A stretch of 64,000 nucleotides of DNA from NCBI GenBank assembly GCA_021782205.1, contig JAJXVH010000002.1, forward strand, positions 1 through 64,000, given 5' to 3'. The notes below the pieces were generated by a model. The model was not told where the DNA came from and made no database searches. It was given only the letters and a program-made list of their open reading frames with translations. A program made the translations under genes and the position numbers. Positions 4,643 through 15,009 of this stretch are shown one piece after another (the first letter of the stretch is position 1; every line of letters starts with the position of its first letter). The stretch is from a bacterium. GTDB lineage: Bacteria; Elusimicrobiota; Elusimicrobia; UBA1565; UBA9628.

Positions 4643-5677
4643 TCAAAATCTCCAGCCGGCGCTGATGCGATACTCGTCGCCCAGGTAGGTCATGGGCTCG
4701 AAGGCCGCGTCGAACAGAAAGCGGTTGACGCGCAGGCCGATGCCGGCGGTGAGCCCCGCGACGACGCCCAGGTCCACGGCGGGCTGGCTGGTGTAGCCCA
4801 GGCGCAGCCCACCCCAGGCGTTATCGCCGAGCGCGCGGTAGTATTCGACGCCGAACTTGACGTATGGATTGCCTGCATAGGGAATGGAGACATCGAGCGC
4901 GGGCAGCAGGCGCCAGCCCGCGCCGCGGAAGGCATAGGCCGCCGAGGCGCCGATTTCCGAAGGCAGTGGCTCGGAGACGTCGATGTAGCGCAATTGACCG
5001 CCCAAGTTGCGCACCGCCGCGCCGAAGATCAAGTCGGGAGCCGCGGCGGGGCGAAAGATGGCGCCCGCGTCGACGGCGGTGGTGCCCGCGGCGCGCGTGC
5101 CGAGGTTTTCATCGATGTATTTGACCGCAAGGCCCGCGTCAAGCGTGCCCGCGATGGGCGCCGACGGCTGTGCGTCGTCGCCCAAGGGCTTATCGGCGCC
5201 CGGCATCAGCCACTCGCGGTCCATGGCGGACCGGCCCAGCGAGGAGTCTTCTCCGCCCAACGTGAAGCGGTGCGCGTAGGAGAGAGCGTAGGCCTCGGAG
5301 TGGGGGGCGAAGGAGCCCACGGTCTGGTTGCTGGCGGTGACCAAGTCCTGGCCGGGTTGGGTCAGGCTCGTGAAAGCCACGCCGATGTCGCCGTGGAGAA
5401 ATTCAGAAGGAGCGGCGGCGGCGGCGAAGTTGTGCATGATTCCGGCTGGAAGCTGGGTGAGGCTGTAGGCGGCCTCGGGGCTTTTCATCGCGGCCATGCC
5501 CGCGGGGTTCCAATAGATGGCCTCGGGACCCTCGGCGATGGCCGTGTAGGCGCCGGCCATGCCCAGGGAGCGCGCACCCGCTCCGATGGTCAGAAATTGA
5601 GCCGCGACCGTGCCGACGTTCTGCTGGAGCGCGTGGGCCGGCGCGGTCAGCAGGAGCGCGGCCCAAAATAAATTCAT
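4643..5677 (-). CDS. PorV/PorQ-like outer-membrane beta-barrel protein
   Basis: QNVGTVAAQFLTIGAGARSLGMAGAYTAIAEGPEAIYWNPAGMA pattern; ATG at 5677 overlaps the stop of the upstream gene (ATGA). Confidence 0.8.
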   Translation of the reverse strand: MNLFWAALLLTAPAHALQQNVGTVAAQFLTIGAGARSLGMAGAYTAIAEGPEAIYWNPAGMAAMKSPEAAYSLTQLPAGIMHNFAAAAAPSEFLHGDIGVAFTSLTQPGQDLVTASNQTVGSFAPHSEAYALSYAHRFTLGGEDSSLGRSAMDREWLMPGADKPLGDDAQPSAPIAGTLDAGLAVKYIDENLGTRAAGTTAVDAGAIFRPAAAPDLIFGAAVRNLGGQLRYIDVSEPLPSEIGASAAYAFRGAGWRLLPALDVSIPYAGNPYVKFGVEYYRALGDNAWGGLRLGYTSQPAVDLGVVAGLTAGIGLRVNRFLFDAAFEPMTYLGDEYRISAGWRF

Positions 5678-8600
5678 CGGATCAGCACCACGCGACGCAG
5701 GCGCCTGGTCCCACCGGACGAAATCGCGCACAGATAGGTGCCCGAGGCCGCGGCGCGCCCAAAGCGGTTATGGCCGTCCCACGTCGCCACGCCGAAGGCC
5801 GACGACGAACCCTCCCAGACCAGCTCGCCGGACAAGGTGAAGAGCTTGACCTGCGCGCCCGCGGGCAGGTTCGAGAAGGTCAGAACGTTCGCATAGTAGG
5901 GGCTGCCCGGCGCGCCCAGTTCCCACGGCTGGGGGAATATCTGCACCGGCGACAGGTCGCCGGTCGTCGCCGCGGTCATGAAGAACGGCGCGAACAGCGA
6001 GAAGTGCGTGGTGTAGGCGGTCAAGACGTGCGCGGAGGCGACGTCATGAGAGGCCACGATCGTCCACTGGCCGGCGGCGGGATCGTAGCGCATGAGCTGG
6101 AGGGCGCTTTCCGCGTCGCCGGCGGGCAGTTGGCCCGGATTATACGCGACGGAAAAAAGCACGGGCGCGCTGGGCTGGGGGCCGCCGGAATAGAGGCAGG
6201 TCGAAGCGCCCGACACGCAGAACGCGGCCTGCGGCCCCGCCGGCGTGATCGCCGACTCATTGCTGCCGGCCCCCGACAGAGTCGTCAGCGGCGTGCCGAA
6301 GAAGCCCTCGATGGCGGAGGCCGTCGTGCCCGCGGCAAACGCGCCCGCCGGGATGGTCACGGTCAGCGAGATCAGCGGCGGCGACAAGGGCAGGAACAGC
6401 ACGAGGTTTCCCGCGCCCGAAGTCCCGGTCGACAGCGTCGGCGCGCCGGTCGTCGTCGATCCGGCGGCCGAGAAATAATCCGCCGCGCCCTGCCAGTTCA
6501 GCGTGCCGACGCGGGCGTAGTAGGTCGTGTCGTAGAAAAGCCCGGAGACGAGCGCCGAGGACGCCGCCGGCGGCGCGAACACGCTGACGCTCAGCGTCGC
6601 GAACGTCGGCGACGTCGACAGGTCCACGCGGTAGCCCTCGTTGCCGGCCGCCGCCGTCCAGCCCACGCTCAGCGTGCTGACGAAGACCTGCTGGAAGGCC
6701 GCCGCCGCGACCGGCGCGGCCAAGGTCGAGCCGGAGCCGAGGGCGGAGGGCGCGCCGTTGGGGTCCGACGACAAGCTCTGGGCCGCGACCTGGGCGAAAT
6801 AGGTGGTGTTCGGCGCCAAACCCGAGACGACCGCCGAGCCGCCGACGGCGATCGAACTGGCGGCGGCGGTGAACGGCGACGCGGTCAAGGACACCGCCGC
6901 GGAATAGGACGTGCCCGGCGCGAAGCCGTTCGTCGACCATTGGAGCGCCAGCGCCGTCGAGGAAACCGCGACCGGAGCGCCTGCGGCGGCGGGCATGGCC
7001 GCCAAGGTGGCCGTCGCGGCCGGCACGCTGAATGCCGTCTGCGCGCCGGCGGAGTTCAGCGCGGCGACTTGGACGTAGAAGGTGGCGTTGGAGAGCAGCC
7101 CGCCGAACGCGGCGTCCGTCGCCGTGGTCGTCAGCGCGGCGTTGAGCGTGGCGAAGACGGGGCTGGTGGAGAGCTGAAAGACGTAGCGCGTGCCCGCGGG
7201 ATTTCCGGCCGGGTTGACGACGGCGACCAAGGATCCCGTGCTCAGCGCCGTGAAGGGCGGCGCGGCCAGAGCGGGAGGTGCGGCCAGCGTCAGCGTCGAG
7301 CCGATCAGGACGTAGACCGTGGGCGCGCCGGCGCGGCCGAAGGCGCGCGCACGGGCGTAGTAGGTCGTGTTCGCGCTCAGGCCCGCGAACGCCGCGGACG
7401 TCGCCGCGACGTCGGCGGACGAGAACGACGCGAACGTCGCGTAGGAGGAAATATCCGCTTCATACGCGGCGTCGGCCGCGTTGCCGTTCGCCGACCATTG
7501 GACGACGAGCGTCGTCGAGGCCACCGCAACGAAGGCGGGAGAGACGGCCGTCGGCGCGGCCGCGACGGTCGCCTGCGGGCCCGCGTCCAGGAACGGCCCG
7601 CCGGAGCCCTGGACGCGGAAATAGTAGCTCGTGTCGGAAGCCAGCCCATTGAAGGTCTGCGACAAGGCCGTGCCCGATTGGGTGAGCAAGGCGCCGCTGT
7701 AGTCCGGCGCGGTCGAGGCCTGCGCGACGTAGAGCTCGCCGGGCGGATTGCCGCCGGTGCTCCAGGAGAACGTGATCGCCGTCGCGGAAATGCTCGAAAA
7801 AGCGGGCGAGGCCGGGATCAAGGCATTGGTGTTGAAGGTCGTGGACGGGCCGTAGGAAGGAAATCCGTAGGGATTGGCGTAGGCGAGCTTGACATAGTAG
7901 ATGCCGCTGACCAGTCCGTTGAGCGTCAGCGAGGTCAGCCCGACGCTGGGAGTGGCGCTGGAATACAGCGTGCCGGTAAACCCGGCGTCCGTGGAGACGA
8001 GCACCGCGTAGCCGGAACAGGACTGCGCGGACGGAGGCGCCGAACAGGCCGCGTAGGTGAAGGTCGCGCTCGAGGTGTAGCCGACGACGACGGGGGAGGA
8101 GGTTGGAGGCTCGGCGTAAGTGGCCGTCGCCAAGGAAACCGGCGCGGAGCCCTGGATGCCGTCGACCGTCGGATAGACGATCACTCCCGCCGCGGCGTCC
8201 GGCGCCAGACCCGAACGGATGAACGGCGGCTGGATGGCCGAGCCCAGTTGTTGCGCGGGGGCGGTCGCGTTGTAGACGTTATAGGCGGTATTGGCCGCGG
8301 CCGTCCAGTTCCACGTGATCGAGGAAATTCCCAAGGTCGACGCGGACAGGCCCGAGACCGCGACCGTCTCCGGCGCGCTCAGCGAGGCGATCAAATGGTC
8401 GGCCCGAAAGGACCCCCAACCCGTGGCGTTGTCGTAGCCCGTCCCGGCGTTGTAGTAGCCGTTGTTGCCGCTGGTCACGTCGTTGAAGTTGTAGGCGTAG
8501 CCGCTGCCGCCGCCCATCGCCAATTGGTAGAGCGGGGGGTTGGCGAAGCCCAACGTCGAGTAGCCGCCCGCGACGCGCGCCTGGTTGACGAGGTTGGCCA

Positions 8601-10176
8601 GCGCCGCCCACAGCGGCGACGCCGCGCTGGTGCCGCCGATGGCGTTGGCGCAACTGCCGCCGACGCAGACCGCGTAGAAGGAACTGTTGGGGTCGGCGTT
8701 GAGCGAGACGTCGGGCACGTTGCGGTAGGCCGTCGAGTAGAGGGTGCCGACGCCGGATTGGTAGGAGGGAATGGGCCAATACGATCCGTTGGGTCTATCG
8801 GCGATGCCGCCGCCGCCCGCTCCGTAGTTCTGGCAGTTGGCGATGGCGCTGCCTGAACACAGGCTGCCGGGCACGCCGTTCCAGACCGTCTCGGTGATCG
8901 CCCCTCCGACCGTTCCCGAAAGGCTGGTGCCGCCCACGCCGGTGACATAGGGCTGAGAGGCGGGATCGTCGGTGACCAAGGTGTTGGTCGCGTCGATGGA
9001 ACCGGTGACGCTGGCGGCGTCATAGGCACCCTGGTCGCCCGCCGCCGAGAAGATGGACTGCCCCTGCGTCGCCATCTGCTGGAACACCGTCGCCTCCGCG
9101 CTCATGGCGGCGGTTCCTTCATCGTCCTCGTCCAAGCCCCAGGAGGTGCTGACGGCTTTCGCGGCGTCGTCGGCCGCGATCTGCGCGTAGACGTCGACGG
9201 TGGTGGAACTGGGGGCGATGTAGACGGCGATGTTGGCCGCTCCGGAAGACAGCGCCAGCGCCATGTCGATGTCGAGCGCGACCTCACCCATGCCGTTGTC
9301 CGCGCCGGTCGTCGTCTGATCGGGTTGGCCGCCGTTGAGCGTGGTGGAGTTGCACGGATCGCTCTGGTTGGGGCCGCAGAGGTTCGCCTGACCGTCGACG
9401 GCCACGGCCGTCACCGTCGAGTAGGGAGCGGAAAAAAACGTGGTCTCGTAGAGTCCCACATCAGAAGGAGCGAAGCCGTCGTATTCGACAAGCGCCATTT
9501 CCTGGCCAGCGCCGGTCAACTTTCCCGGAGTAAGTCCGTAGATCTTCTTGATGTCGACCGGAGCCAGTTCGCCGCCCGGACCAGTGCCGCCGGAAAGCGT
9601 CCTAGCACCCGCGACGCGCGCGGCGCGGCGCACGTGTGGCTTGGCCGCGCCGCGGTAGTTCGACAGTCCCATCACCGCCAGCAAATGCGGCATGAGCGAA
9701 GCCGGAATCCGGGGGTCGGATTCAGCGGCGCGGAAAATTTGTCCGTCAGGGGCGCGGTAGCGATTCAAAATCAGTCCGAACGCGCCCTGCACCGCGGCCG
9801 CCGAACCGGAAACATGGACGACCAAGTCGTTGGGCGCGGCGGAGGGCGCGACGGCAAGACCCGCCGCGCGCGCGAAGCGCTCCACCGCGCGCCGCTTGGC
9901 CGCGACGCCGAAGAGCGCGCCGAACTGCGCCGGCGTCAAAAAGCTCTTGTTGCGGGGCGCGCCCGGGCCGTAGAGCGCGGCCAGCGTCCGATCCATCTGG
10001 GCCTGGTCCAGGCGCAGGTAGAGGCTGAGCGGGACGTTTTCGTCGGAAGCCGCGCGTCCGAGGAGAGCGGACGCGCGCACGACGCGGGCCACGTGGCCGG
10101 GGAGAACGACCGACCCGGCGGCCGACGAGACGGTCGTCGCGAGAGCCAGAGCGGACGCGATGAAGACAAGCTTCAT
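5674..10176 (-). CDS. S53 (sedolisin) family peptidase with pro-domain, about seven FN3-like modules and a FlgD/T9SS-like C-terminal domain
   Basis: E/D motif GEVALDIDM; Ser motif GGTSAASPLWAAL; repeated NTTYYARA-type modules; C-terminal VKLFTLSGELVWEG...WDGHNRFGRAAASGTYLCAI. Confidence 0.88.
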   Translation of the reverse strand: MKLVFIASALALATTVSSAAGSVVLPGHVARVVRASALLGRAASDENVPLSLYLRLDQAQMDRTLAALYGPGAPRNKSFLTPAQFGALFGVAAKRRAVERFARAAGLAVAPSAAPNDLVVHVSGSAAAVQGAFGLILNRYRAPDGQIFRAAESDPRIPASLMPHLLAVMGLSNYRGAAKPHVRRAARVAGARTLSGGTGPGGELAPVDIKKIYGLTPGKLTGAGQEMALVEYDGFAPSDVGLYETTFFSAPYSTVTAVAVDGQANLCGPNQSDPCNSTTLNGGQPDQTTTGADNGMGEVALDIDMALALSSGAANIAVYIAPSSTTVDVYAQIAADDAAKAVSTSWGLDEDDEGTAAMSAEATVFQQMATQGQSIFSAAGDQGAYDAASVTGSIDATNTLVTDDPASQPYVTGVGGTSLSGTVGGAITETVWNGVPGSLCSGSAIANCQNYGAGGGGIADRPNGSYWPIPSYQSGVGTLYSTAYRNVPDVSLNADPNSSFYAVCVGGSCANAIGGTSAASPLWAALANLVNQARVAGGYSTLGFANPPLYQLAMGGGSGYAYNFNDVTSGNNGYYNAGTGYDNATGWGSFRADHLIASLSAPETVAVSGLSASTLGISSITWNWTAAANTAYNVYNATAPAQQLGSAIQPPFIRSGLAPDAAAGVIVYPTVDGIQGSAPVSLATATYAEPPTSSPVVVGYTSSATFTYAACSAPPSAQSCSGYAVLVSTDAGFTGTLYSSATPSVGLTSLTLNGLVSGIYYVKLAYANPYGFPSYGPSTTFNTNALIPASPAFSSISATAITFSWSTGGNPPGELYVAQASTAPDYSGALLTQSGTALSQTFNGLASDTSYYFRVQGSGGPFLDAGPQATVAAAPTAVSPAFVAVASTTLVVQWSANGNAADAAYEADISSYATFASFSSADVAATSAAFAGLSANTTYYARARAFGRAGAPTVYVLIGSTLTLAAPPALAAPPFTALSTGSLVAVVNPAGNPAGTRYVFQLSTSPVFATLNAALTTTATDAAFGGLLSNATFYVQVAALNSAGAQTAFSVPAATATLAAMPAAAGAPVAVSSTALALQWSTNGFAPGTSYSAAVSLTASPFTAAASSIAVGGSAVVSGLAPNTTYFAQVAAQSLSSDPNGAPSALGSGSTLAAPVAAAAFQQVFVSTLSVGWTAAAGNEGYRVDLSTSPTFATLSVSVFAPPAASSALVSGLFYDTTYYARVGTLNWQGAADYFSAAGSTTTGAPTLSTGTSGAGNLVLFLPLSPPLISLTVTIPAGAFAAGTTASAIEGFFGTPLTTLSGAGSNESAITPAGPQAAFCVSGASTCLYSGGPQPSAPVLFSVAYNPGQLPAGDAESALQLMRYDPAAGQWTIVASHDVASAHVLTAYTTHFSLFAPFFMTAATTGDLSPVQIFPQPWELGAPGSPYYANVLTFSNLPAGAQVKLFTLSGELVWEGSSSAFGVATWDGHNRFGRAAASGTYLCAISSGGTRRLRRVVLIR

Positions 10177-10210
10177 GTCGTGCGAGTCCCGGCGGCGCGC
10201 CGGCCGGTGT

Positions 10211-10894
10211 TTAATCCAATTTTTCGGCGGAGATCAGGCCCAGATCGATGCCCTTGACGACGGCCTCGGTGCGGTTGGACGCGCCCAGCTTCTGGAACAT
10301 GCTGTTGAGGTGGTTCTTGACCGTCTTGACGCTGCACTCGAGAGCCGCCGCGATCTCCTTGTTGGACTGCCCGCGGCCGAGCAAAGCCAGGACCTTGATC
10401 TCGGTCTTGGTCAGCGCCACGATGGAGCCCGGGCTGCCGCCCGCGCCGATGTTGCGCAGGCCGTCGATGAGCTTGCTCATCACGGGCTGGGGGATCATCA
10501 CGCCCTGGTTGGCGAAGGTCTTGAGCGCGTTGACCAGTTCCGCGGCCGGCAGCATTTTGGACAGATAGCCGTTGGCGCCGGCCTGGATGGCCTCCATCAC
10601 GTGCGCCTCGTCCTCGTAGCCGGACAGGATCAGCACGTTCGTGTTCGGGCACTCCTTGTGAATCTGGCGCGTGGCCTCGATGCCGTCCATGTGCGGCAGC
10701 TTGATATCAAGGAGGATCACGTTGGGCTTGAGCTTCTTGACCAGGCGCAGCGCGTCGCGCCCGTCGGCGGCCTCGCCGATGACCGAGATATTTTTCTCGT
10801 CGCTGAGCAGGTCCTTGATGCCCTCGCGGAACAACGTCTGGTCGTCCGCGATGACGACCGTGATCTTCTTCGCCGCCGTTTTCGCCTTGGCCAC
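10211..10894 (-). CDS. NarL/FixJ-family response regulator (receiver + LuxR-type HTH)
   Basis: VVIADDQTLFREG, VILLDIKLPHMDG, LTKTEIKVLALLGRGQSNKEIAAALECSVKTVKNH; GTG start at 10894 with upstream AAGGAG. Confidence 0.92.
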   Translation of the reverse strand: MAKAKTAAKKITVVIADDQTLFREGIKDLLSDEKNISVIGEAADGRDALRLVKKLKPNVILLDIKLPHMDGIEATRQIHKECPNTNVLILSGYEDEAHVMEAIQAGANGYLSKMLPAAELVNALKTFANQGVMIPQPVMSKLIDGLRNIGAGGSPGSIVALTKTEIKVLALLGRGQSNKEIAAALECSVKTVKNHLNSMFQKLGASNRTEAVVKGIDLGLISAEKLD

Positions 10895-11002: not shown

Positions 11003-11074
11003 GGCGCGGTAGCTCAGTGGTAGAGCGGAGGTTTCATAAGCCTCATGTCGGCAGTTCGATCCTGCCCCGCGCCA
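11003..11074 (+). tRNA. tRNA-Met (anticodon CAT)
   Basis: GGCGCGG/CCGCGCC acceptor, D-arm GCTCAGTGGTAGAGC, anticodon arm GAGGT-TTCATAA-GCCTC, T-arm GGCAGTTCGATCCTGCC; CCA not encoded. Confidence 0.95.
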
Positions 11075-11085
11075 ATCTTCGTAAG

Positions 11086-11121
11086 ACCCGCGGACATTGA
11101 TCCAGATCAATGTCCGCGGGT
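11086..11121. repeat. Perfect 17-bp inverted repeat (ACCCGCGGACATTGATC-CA-GATCAATGTCCGCGGGT)
   Basis: Read directly; no T-tract on the + side. Confidence 0.85.
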
Positions 11122-11178
11122 TCCGCTTTCGGTCTAATGCGTCGACTTTCACCACACATTCCGCGCGGAGGAATTCCG

Positions 11179-11361
11179 ATGGCCGAGACCCTCGTCGTCG
11201 TCAGCAAGGTCAAGAAGCTCGTGAAGGACGCCGGGCTGCGCACCGGCGGAGACTACGTCGACGCGCTGTCCGCCAAAATCGCCGGCATGATCACCGCCTC
11301 GGTGCAGAAAGTGCAGGCCGACGGCAAGAAAAAGACCCTGAGCGCCGAAGACCTTCTTTAA
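11179..11361 (+). CDS. Bacterial histone-fold protein (60 aa, Bd0055/HBb-like)
   Basis: MAETLVVVSKVKKLVKDAGLRTGGDYVDALSAKIAGMITASVQKVQADGKKKTLSAEDLL; GKKKTLSAEDL matches the histone L2/alpha-3 pattern; GGAGG SD upstream. Confidence 0.7.
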   Translation: MAETLVVVSKVKKLVKDAGLRTGGDYVDALSAKIAGMITASVQKVQADGKKKTLSAEDLL

Positions 11362-11373
11362 AAAGACGGCCTG

Positions 11374-12372
11374 ATGCCCACCTTTCGGGACTTCATGGAG
11401 TCGGCCCTCTATGACCGCGACACGGGCTTTTACACCGTGCGCGAAAAGACCGCCGATTTCTACACCGCCCCGGAGCTGCACCCCGCGTTCGGCGCCGTGG
11501 TGGCCGACCGTGTCGCCGCGCTCCTGCGCCGCGCGCGCGCGGCCAATCCCCGCGCGCGCCTGAGCCTGGTCGAGGCCGGCGCCGGCGACGGTACGCTGGC
11601 CGCGCAGATGGTCAGAAGACTGCGCGAGGGCCACGGCGACGTCGCCGCGGATCTGAGCGTCGTTCTGGTGGAACGCTCGCGCCGCGACCTGACCGAGGCG
11701 GCGCGCCGCGTCACCGCGTTCGGCCTGCCCGTCGACGCCTGCACCGGCCTGGACCGTCTGCCCGCCTTCACCGGCGTGCTGGTCTCCAACGAGCTGATCG
11801 ACGCCCTGCCCGCGCACCTGCTGGTCAAGAGCGGCGGAAAAATGCGCGAGTTGTACGTCGACGAGGGCCGCGAAGCGATCGGCCCGCTCTCGACGCCCGA
11901 GCTGGCCGCGGCCGCCGACACGATCGCCCCCGCTCTGGAAGAGGGGGGACGTCACGCCGTCAGCCTGGAGGCGCGCCTCTGGATGACGGAGGCCGCCCGG
12001 CGCCTTTCGTCGGGCTTCATCGTCACGTTCGATTACGGCAAGCGTTTTTCAGACCTCACGCCCAACGTCCCGCGCGCCTACCGCGCCCACCGTCTGGAGT
12101 CCGACCTGATCGAAGCGCCCGGCACGAAGGACCTCACCGTGCCCGCGGACTTCGGCGCGCTCATCGACGCCGGCGCCGCGGCGGGGCTGGAGCTTGAGAA
12201 CTACGAGAGCCTCTCGCGCTTTTTGATCGACGGCGGCATCGAGCGCTGGCTTGCCGCCGCGGCCGGCGACGGCCCCGAGGCGTACGCCGAGCGCGCCCGC
12301 CTGAAGACTTTGTTCCACCCCGAGGGGATGGGCGAGGCCTTCAAGGTTCTTATACAGAGGAAAGCGATATGA
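11374..12372 (+). CDS. SAM-dependent methyltransferase, MidA/NDUFAF7 family (COG1565-like)
   Basis: YTAPELHPAFGAVVADRV, VEAGAGDGTLAAQMVRRL, SNELIDALPAHL. Confidence 0.82.
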   Translation: MPTFRDFMESALYDRDTGFYTVREKTADFYTAPELHPAFGAVVADRVAALLRRARAANPRARLSLVEAGAGDGTLAAQMVRRLREGHGDVAADLSVVLVERSRRDLTEAARRVTAFGLPVDACTGLDRLPAFTGVLVSNELIDALPAHLLVKSGGKMRELYVDEGREAIGPLSTPELAAAADTIAPALEEGGRHAVSLEARLWMTEAARRLSSGFIVTFDYGKRFSDLTPNVPRAYRAHRLESDLIEAPGTKDLTVPADFGALIDAGAAAGLELENYESLSRFLIDGGIERWLAAAAGDGPEAYAERARLKTLFHPEGMGEAFKVLIQRKAI

Positions 12373-12725
12373 TGAACGCCTACGCCGTGGTGTTCGCCTT
12401 CGTGATCGTCGGCGTCGGCTTCGCCGCGGTCACGCTTCTGGCCGCCAAGGTTCTGCGCCCGAGCGTGCCCTACGCGCGCAAGGAAAGCACCTACGAGTGC
12501 GGCATCCCCGCCACGGGCTCAAGCGAAGTCAAGCTCAACATCCGTTTTCACACGTACGCGCTCTTGTTCGTGCTGTTTGACGTGGAGGTTCTCTACGTCT
12601 TCCCGTGGGCGGTCGTCTCACGCGGATTGGGCGCGCCGGCCCTCGTGGAAATGGGAGCGTTCTTGGCGATCCTGGCGCTGGGGCTGGCGTTCGCCTGGCG
12701 CAAGGGCGCGCTGAGCTGGGAGTAA
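12369..12725 (+). CDS. nuoA: NADH-quinone oxidoreductase subunit A
   Basis: YECGIPATGSSEVKLNIRFHTYALLFVLFDVEVLYVFPWA. Confidence 0.97.
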   Translation: MMNAYAVVFAFVIVGVGFAAVTLLAAKVLRPSVPYARKESTYECGIPATGSSEVKLNIRFHTYALLFVLFDVEVLYVFPWAVVSRGLGAPALVEMGAFLAILALGLAFAWRKGALSWE

Positions 12726-12728
12726 GAC

Positions 12729-13280
12729 ATGGGCATGATACTTGAGAAGCTGCCGGGACTGACGAAGGGACTGCCGGGCGGGGAGCTGGTGCTGACCACC
12801 GCCGATTATCTCATCGACCTGGGCCGACGCCAGTCGATGTGGCCCATGACCTTCGGCCTGGCCTGCTGCGCTATCGAGATGATGGCCTCCTACGCCTCGC
12901 GCCTGGACTTCGACCGCATGGGCGTCATCCCGCGCGCCAGCCCCCGACAGGCCGACGTCATGATCGTGGCCGGCACCGTCTGCAAGAAGATGGCCGACCC
13001 GATCCTTGAAATCTACCACCAGATGCCCGAGCCGCGCTTCGTCATCTCCATGGGCTCCTGCGCCAACTGCGGCGGCCCCTACTATGACTCGTATTCCGTG
13101 GTGAAAGGCGTGGACCGCATCGTGCCCGTGGACGTCTACATCGCCGGCTGTCCGCCGCGGCCCGAGGCGCTTCAGTACGCGGTGATCAAGCTCCAGGAAA
13201 AGATCAAGCGTATGTCGCTGGCCAAGGAAGGCCTGGCCACGCCGCAGATGGAGAAGGGCAGCCGCCCGTTCGGAGCCTAG
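12729..13280 (+). CDS. nuoB: NADH-quinone oxidoreductase subunit B
   Basis: N2-cluster ligands [40 protein letters not shown]. Confidence 0.97.
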
Positions 13281-13282
13281 CC

Positions 13283-13849
13283 ATGACCCAGGACGAACTC
13301 TTCGCCAAGATCGCGGCGCGTTTTCCAAAAATCGAGAAGGCCGCGGTGCCGGTCAAGGACTATCTGACCGTGCGCCTACCTTCAAAGGACGATCTCCTGC
13401 CGCTGGCGCAGTGGCTCAAGACGTCGGGCTTCGACTACCTGGACATGCTCACCGGCACGGACTTCCTCGGACCCGTGGACATGAAGGGCTACATCCGCCA
13501 GCAGAACTTCAACGTGTTCCTGCCCGACGGCGCCACGCCGGAAATCGAGTCGGCCGCCACTCCCGGCTACGCCTATAAGCCCGTCCTCGACCTGCTCTGG
13601 TCGTTCGTGTCGATCAAGGAGCGTGCGCGTGTGATCGTCAAGCTGGAGGTGCCGCGCGACGCGGCCCGCGTTCCCAGCTTGGCGGGACTGTTCAAGACCG
13701 CCGACTGGCAGGAGCGCGAGACGTTCGACCTGCTGGGCGTGACCTATGAGGGCCATCCGAACCTGGTGAAGATCCTCACCCCCGATTTCCTGCAGGGCCA
13801 TCCCCTGCGCAAGGATTACGCGCACGTCAAGGACCGCTTCGATGACTGA
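13283..13849 (+). CDS. nuoC: NADH-quinone oxidoreductase subunit C
   Basis: [38 protein letters not shown]. Confidence 0.95.
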
Positions 13850-13893: not shown

Positions 13894-15009
13894 ATGACTA
13901 ACGCCGCCGAATTGAAGACGGACCAGCTCTTCATCAACATGGGTCCCCAGCACCCGTCCACGCACGGCGTGCTGCGCATCGGCCTGACCATCGAAGGCGA
14001 GGTCATCGTCAAGGCCGTGCCGGACATCGGCTACCTGCACCGCGGCACGGAGAAGCTGGCCGAGGTGCGCAACTACCACCACTGCGTCGTGCTGACCGAC
14101 CGCTGGGACTACGTCTCGGCCATGCCCAACAACCTGGTCTTCTGCCTGTCGGCCGAGAAGCTCATGGGGCTCAAGGTGCCGCCGCGCGCCGACGCCCTGC
14201 GCGTGATCTCCTGCGAGCTCAACCGCATCGCCAGCCACCTCCTGTTCTTCGGCACCTACGGCATCGACACGGGCGCGTTCACGCCGTTTCTCTACGCGTT
14301 TCGCGAGCGCGAGATGGTGCTGGACCTCTTCGAGATGCTCTGCGGCGCGCGCCTGACCTACAACTACATCCGCCTGGGCGGCGTGATGGTGGACGCCTCG
14401 CCCGAGTGGCGGACGCGGCTGGCGGAGTTCGTGGAGTATTTCAAGCCGCGCCTGGACGAATACGACACTTTGCTCTCCTTCAACCCCATCTTCATGGCGC
14501 GCACCCAGGGCGTGGGACGGCTCAGCGCCGAGGAAGCCGTCAACTGGGGGCTGTCCGGCCCCAACCTGCGCGCCTCCGGCGTGGACTACGACGTGCGCAA
14601 GCACGACCCCTACTGCGGCTACGAGAACTATGAATTCGAGGTGCCGTTGGGCGCCGAGGGCTCGTGCTGGGACCGCTACTTCTGCCGCGTGCGCGAGATG
14701 CGCCAATCCGTGCGCATCATCGAGCAAGCCTTGGCCAAACTGCCCGAAGGCCCCACCATGGCCACGGGCGTGGCCAAGATCCCCAAGCCCGCGGCCGGCG
14801 AGGCCTACGCGCACGTCGAGGCCTCGCGCGGCGAACTGGGCATCTACCTGGTCAGCGACGGCGGCATTTCGCCCTTCCGCATGCACGTGCGCGCGCCGTC
14901 GTTCGTGAACCTGGCGATGCTTGAGAAGACCCTCGTCGGCATGAAGGTGGCCGACGTGATCGCCGTGCTGGGCTCGATCGACATCGTGCTCGGCGAGGTG
15001 GACCGATGA
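13894..15009 (+). CDS. nuoD: NADH-quinone oxidoreductase subunit D
   Basis: NMGPQHPSTHGVLR, GYLHRGTEKLAE, C-terminal GSIDIVLGEVDR. Confidence 0.97.
   Translation: MTNAAELKTDQLFINMGPQHPSTHGVLRIGLTIEGEVIVKAVPDIGYLHRGTEKLAEVRNYHHCVVLTDRWDYVSAMPNNLVFCLSAEKLMGLKVPPRADALRVISCELNRIASHLLFFGTYGIDTGAFTPFLYAFREREMVLDLFEMLCGARLTYNYIRLGGVMVDASPEWRTRLAEFVEYFKPRLDEYDTLLSFNPIFMARTQGVGRLSAEEAVNWGLSGPNLRASGVDYDVRKHDPYCGYENYEFEVPLGAEGSCWDRYFCRVREMRQSVRIIEQALAKLPEGPTMATGVAKIPKPAAGEAYAHVEASRGELGIYLVSDGGISPFRMHVRAPSFVNLAMLEKTLVGMKVADVIAVLGSIDIVLGEVDR

Follow-up and report, generated by a model that had tools for sequence, protein, structure and literature searches.

The histone gene and its surroundings

The window, by which we mean the whole analysed stretch of 64,000 nucleotides from a bacterium of the phylum Elusimicrobiota, contains on its forward strand a small histone gene, which lies between a tRNA gene and a run of genes leading into complex I. 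The features of this region are as follows:

11003..11074, forward strand: tRNA-Met (CAU), which family f1 and several other families keep as the upstream neighbour
11167..11172, forward strand: GGAGGA, the Shine-Dalgarno motif for the histone; 83 of the 84 loci have a strong one
11179..11361, forward strand: alpha3-type bacterial histone gene, 60 aa plus stop
11374..12372, forward strand: Methyltransf_28 (MidA/NDUFAF7-type) gene (PF02636, 1.3e-38), beginning 12 nt past the histone stop
12369..12725, forward strand: nuoA (PF00507, 3.1e-32)
12729..13280, forward strand: nuoB (PF01058, 6.5e-28)
13283..13849, forward strand: nuoC (PF00329, 1.3e-29)
13894..15009, forward strand: nuoD, named by sequence and position, the order being conserved in relatives

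The histone gene was recognized by sequence matches, predicted fold and ortholog alignment. Its open reading frame translates to MAETLVVVSKVKKLVKDAGLRTGGDYVDALSAKIAGMITASVQKVQADGKKKTLSAEDLL, and the ATG follows 6 nt past the end of the GGAGGA motif, whose duplex with the anti-Shine-Dalgarno sequence amounts to -9.5 kcal/mol. Frame, start and Shine-Dalgarno motif are kept across 83 distinct orthologs; together with the profile match to the Bdellovibrio histone HBb (E = 1.1e-18) this places the histone match far beyond chance. The Methyltransf_28 family includes NDUFAF7, an assembly factor of mitochondrial complex I.

A sequence-only reading had described a minimal single-fold histone between tRNA-Met and the complex I operon. 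The 60-aa open reading frame, its strong Shine-Dalgarno motif and all peptide stretches quoted there are present in the sequence. The placement is right in that both the tRNA gene and the nuo genes flank the histone gene, but the Methyltransf_28 gene before nuoA went unmentioned, and the operon linkage and the loop changes described below were missed.

Two other features of the window may be mentioned. Between tRNA-Met and the histone gene lies a hairpin (11086-11121) with a perfect 16-bp stem and the loop CCAG, which is nearly identical in the closest relative (L002) and has no clear T-run; it may be a tRNA 3' end, an operator or a 5' UTR element. On the reverse strand, positions 5674-10176 encode a protein of 1500 aa that combines fibronectin type III repeats with a Pro-kumamolisin activation domain and is probably a secreted sedolisin-type peptidase.

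Fold, category and DNA-contact loops

A single-sequence phmmer search against the PDB sequences retrieved HBb (2.5e-8), the Leptospira histone HLp (2.2e-6) and HTkC (1e-5). A profile of 30 sequences retrieved the same proteins with 1.1e-18, 5.5e-12 and 1.3e-11, followed by 8bdk and 1f1e, and the matches in these searches were histones only. The predicted monomer (mean pLDDT 88.8) consists of alpha1 (residues 2-17), alpha2 (24-48) and a one-turn alpha3 (56-58). In Foldseek the top eight PDB chains are HBb with DNA, HBb, HLp and HTkC at probabilities of 0.96-1.00 and TM values of 0.69-0.77; owing to the tiny size of the protein the Foldseek E-values are poor, starting at 0.02, and the weight lies on the ranking and the sequence E-values. 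Prediction and Foldseek thus both give a histone fold with the truncated alpha3 of 3-4 residues that characterizes the alpha3 family. Searches of Pfam, NCBIfam and PADLOC with the protein gave no match, and members of the histone alignment gave only weak matches to CBFD_NFYB_HMF and DUF1931, so these collections model the family poorly. A DUF1931 pseudodimeric histone, which carries two fused folds per chain, was rejected due to the length of 60 aa, the one fold and the missing Pfam match. An HU/IHF protein (PF00216) was likewise rejected, as no Pfam match was obtained and HU is encoded by a separate gene (G000:C142). We assign the histone fold with high confidence. The earlier reading is borne out here in its single histone fold: the alpha1-alpha2-alpha3 arrangement appears in the predicted monomer, and the best match is a known bacterial histone and no unrelated family. 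As to its fold the protein is an ordinary member of the recently described alpha3 histone family.

According to the main text of Schwab et al. (PMC11390915) the alpha3 family is mainly divided into FtF tetramers and bacterial dimers. The FtF histone HLp uses R49, N53 and R55 for its tetramer (PMC12701072), and the 60-aa protein has K44, D48 and K50/K51 at these positions. Because these residues differ and HBb scores best by a wide margin (1.1e-18 versus 5.5e-12 for HLp), we file it with the bacterial dimers. The conserved alpha1 lysines K10, K12 and K16 are found in 83/83 orthologs. The RKT...D motif of loop 2 and alpha3 is matched in part: K-K-T and D58 are conserved, but the clamp position holds Lys (79 of 83) more often than Arg (4 of 83), and loop 2 is one residue longer. 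It is highly improbable that the protein forms an FtF-type tetramer which wraps DNA like HLp or HTkC; both are among the best sequence and Foldseek matches, but the tetramer residues are replaced, HBb scores far better than either of them, and true FtF-like paralogs occur separately in related genomes. Such a second histone, ending KRAKANGRKTVRAHDF, is encoded for example in G181, G189, G219 and G293, and the R-x3-N-x-R tetramer signature was found at the loci L102-L109 (G181, G189, G062, G219, G293, G279, G259, G274). In some genomes the FtF-like paralog co-occurs with the complex-I-linked histone; a search of the window's own genome brought up no second histone.

In comparison to HBb, loop 1 is one residue shorter and loop 2 one residue longer in all 83 distinct orthologs of the phylum. 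The column of the loop-2 insertion varies with the aligner, the profile alignment setting it right before K-T, and comparison with those Planctomycetota proteins that share the same loop 1 leaves no doubt about the additional length. The insertion was seen in none of 30 Planctomycetota and neither of two Chlamydiota histones. Published simulations of HBb give N22, R57, S9, T53, T8, S24, K10, K12, K52 and K16 as its main DNA contacts, with R57 as the second most frequent one (PMC11317129). The HBb counterparts of S9, K10, K12, K16, K52, T53 and D58 are DNA contacts or the clamp Asp (PMC11317129); in the phylum K52 is present in 82 of the 83 orthologs and all others are invariant. Kept among the contacts are therefore S9, K10, K12, K16, K52 and T53. 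The contact R57 is lost, its position being occupied by Glu in 82 orthologs and by Gln in one, while the orthologs gain the invariant R21, equivalent to N22 of HBb, and a loop 2 that is longer and rich in Lys. From these residues we infer that the altered loops form a rearranged surface which still binds DNA, and as R57 is Glu here the DNA geometry may differ from that of HBb.

A quick FastTree analysis, limited in resolution by the 60 residues available, groups the 83 orthologs into one clade (local support 0.85) next to a phage protein (L166) and three Planctomycetota proteins. A histone of 73 aa with the Elusimicrobiota-type loop-2 insertion (KKMTLGAEDI) is encoded at 10001-10219 of the tailed-phage contig L171 (IMGVR_UViG_3300021440_000040), which also encodes a terminase, a portal protein, a DNA polymerase and a primase; in a tree this histone falls beside the clade of the phylum. 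The contig may stem from a phage that infects these bacteria and carries a host-type histone.

Gene order at the complex I locus

Within the class, 53 of the 61 distinct orthologs, spread over 11 families, have the nuo genes directly downstream and in the same orientation; this number includes loci at contig ends which show only the gene that precedes nuo elsewhere. Over these 53 loci the median gap between the histone stop and the next gene is 21 nt, some gene pairs share 4 nt, and two loci show a terminator-like element. The intervening gene belongs to Methyltransf_28 in families f1, f2, f3, f8, f13 and f14 and encodes a UbiE-type methyltransferase in f6, f7, f9, f10 and f12; some members have no gene between histone and nuo. 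The upstream genes vary as well: f1 carries tRNA-Met and a response regulator there, other families Rex or an MPN-domain gene. Histone and nuo have thus remained neighbours through changes on both sides.

The Shine-Dalgarno motifs point in the same direction. Across 84 loci the histone gene has a median of -9.5 kcal/mol, and the genes after it have medians between -4.4 and -6.8; nuoD in the window also has a strong one (-10.2). A strong histone motif followed by weaker ones fits a single transcript from which a small protein would be made in abundance and an enzyme in lower amounts. A promoter scan gave nothing.

The linkage is not universal. Eight class members, from a few lineages of f1 and from f5, lack it, and in all five unlinked f1 genomes tested nuoA is located elsewhere in the genome. 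No nuo gene was seen near the 22 orthologs from other classes, whose neighbours include NusG_II plus Hpre_diP_synt_I, RnfC, an rpsB-tsf-like run and exbB/exbD-like genes, the latter two named by sequence only. We also considered whether the presence of the histone tracks that of complex I. This was rejected, since mismatches of both kinds occur among the genomes.

Our confidence that histone and nuo genes form an operon is good. It could be argued that the histone, as an ordinary nucleoid protein, is transcribed alone, and that its place before nuo is inherited gene order with neither a shared transcript nor a shared function. Adjacency among related species can be mere inheritance, several genera lost the linkage while keeping both genes, and the main text of Schwab et al. 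(PMC11390915), the main survey of prokaryotic histones, describes NAP genes including those of alpha3 histones as generally forming single-gene operons. Against this stand the short or overlapping gaps, the almost complete lack of terminators and a linkage that survived the change of upstream and intervening genes. We regard inherited order as rather unlikely, but with an appreciable chance of being right.

Role of the histone and comparison with known systems

One clear HU-family gene is present in the window's genome, which answers the question about HU or IHF raised with the earlier reading. Of the phylum's 296 genomes, 277 gave an HU-family match, nearly all histone carriers among them; the histone itself was found in 89 at an E-value limit of 0.01, with six marginal cases. 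The idea that the histone replaces HU was rejected on these numbers; the histone supplements HU and is no substitute. The earlier reading also suggested a major nucleoid protein. The pointers to that are the strong conserved Shine-Dalgarno motif and the relatives Bd0055 and the Leptospira histone, which are abundant and probably essential according to the main text of Hocher et al. (PMC10627809). It may play such a role, and as HU is present it need not. Codon adaptation, tried as a proxy for abundance, was uninformative; the histone gene ranks at the 73rd percentile of whole genes and at the 57th percentile of 60-codon pieces.

We consider it quite probable that the gene encodes an HBb-type dimeric histone which bends DNA nonspecifically alongside HU, and that it opens a transcript which continues into the methyltransferase and complex I genes. 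Two chains would pair via their long alpha2 helices, and the paired loops 1 and 2 (R21, T22; K51, K52, T53) together with the start of alpha1 (S9, K10, K12, K16) would grip successive minor grooves, by which the DNA would be bent irrespective of its sequence. The histone would work as a nucleoid protein beside HU, and its strong Shine-Dalgarno motif would allow more histone than enzyme subunits to be made. The exclusive matches to histones in the PDB, the HBb-like fold, the kept contacts and the 53 linked loci argue for this reading. The Glu at the position of HBb R57, the presence of HU and a codon adaptation that gives no sign of very high expression count against it, as do, for the operon part, the loss of the linkage in some genera and its absence outside the class. 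For DNA bending itself, which is proposed by analogy to HBb, our confidence is moderate.

As first gene of the operon the histone-fold protein could also act mainly as a local regulator, which binds near the nuo promoter and tunes complex I with no general chromatin role, and the NADH-sensing repressor Rex lies directly upstream in some families. However, the histone is kept where no nuoA was found (e.g. G006, G024, G027, G035, G041) and where nuo is located elsewhere, and its contact residues match those of a nonspecific DNA bender (PMC11317129). Such a purely local role is very unlikely.

A Rex-type redox repressor (PF06971 plus PF02629) is encoded directly upstream of the histone at L007:3288-3998 and also at L010, L058, L069 and L081. 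A search of the window's genome for Rex found none, and Rex was rejected as a regulator there.

The closest known system is HBb (Bd0055) from Bdellovibrio bacteriovorus, an alpha3 bacterial dimer (PDB 8FVX, 8CMP, 9EZZ, 9F0E) with 40-44% identity in structural alignment. Both proteins share a single fold of about 60 aa, the short alpha3, the SK motif, K12, K16, K52-T53 and D58; apart from the two loop lengths they differ in N22 to R21, clamp R51 to K51 and R57 to E57. HLp from Leptospira perolatii (FtF, PDB 9QT0) is an alpha3 histone with 36% identity and the same short loop 1, but it forms a tetramer with residues absent here, and its gene adjoins smc (PMC12701072). Conserved multi-gene operons are also known for the IHF and RdgC histones, the RdgC histone always being the first gene, as stated in the main text of PMC11390915. 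These histones belong to other categories with extra domains or tails, and the partners given there are IHF-like, topoisomerase VI-like and RdgC-like, none with complex I. Bacterial dimers are listed for the Elusimicrobiota in the main text of PMC11390915, and that of PMC10627809 reports that histones persist in Elusimicrobia; the window histone is one of these, same in phylum and category.

The histone is therefore of an already published kind. Neither the loop changes nor the nuo linkage is contained in the main texts of these two papers, and a search of openly accessible main texts found no paper linking bacterial histones to nuo. What appears to be new and undescribed is the phylum-wide loop variant and the conserved first-gene position in a complex I operon.

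Experimental studies exist for very few bacterial histones (HBb and HLp in the papers cited), and the Elusimicrobiota branch adds a variant with changed DNA-contact loops, by which predictions on DNA bending become testable. A possible role of the Methyltransf_28 or UbiE-type gene before nuo in bacterial complex I assembly is worth attention. The position at the head of the complex I genes runs counter to the published generalisation that alpha3 histones form single-gene operons, and it raises the question whether chromatin supply is tied to respiration in a bacterium. One may speculate that co-expression with complex I in most of the class, and a place behind Rex in some other families, would tie the supply of chromatin protein to the redox or energy state, with the altered loops giving a DNA-binding geometry of their own. 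We consider this broader scenario unlikely, and our confidence in a physiological coupling of chromatin to respiration, with any benefit it might bring, is low.
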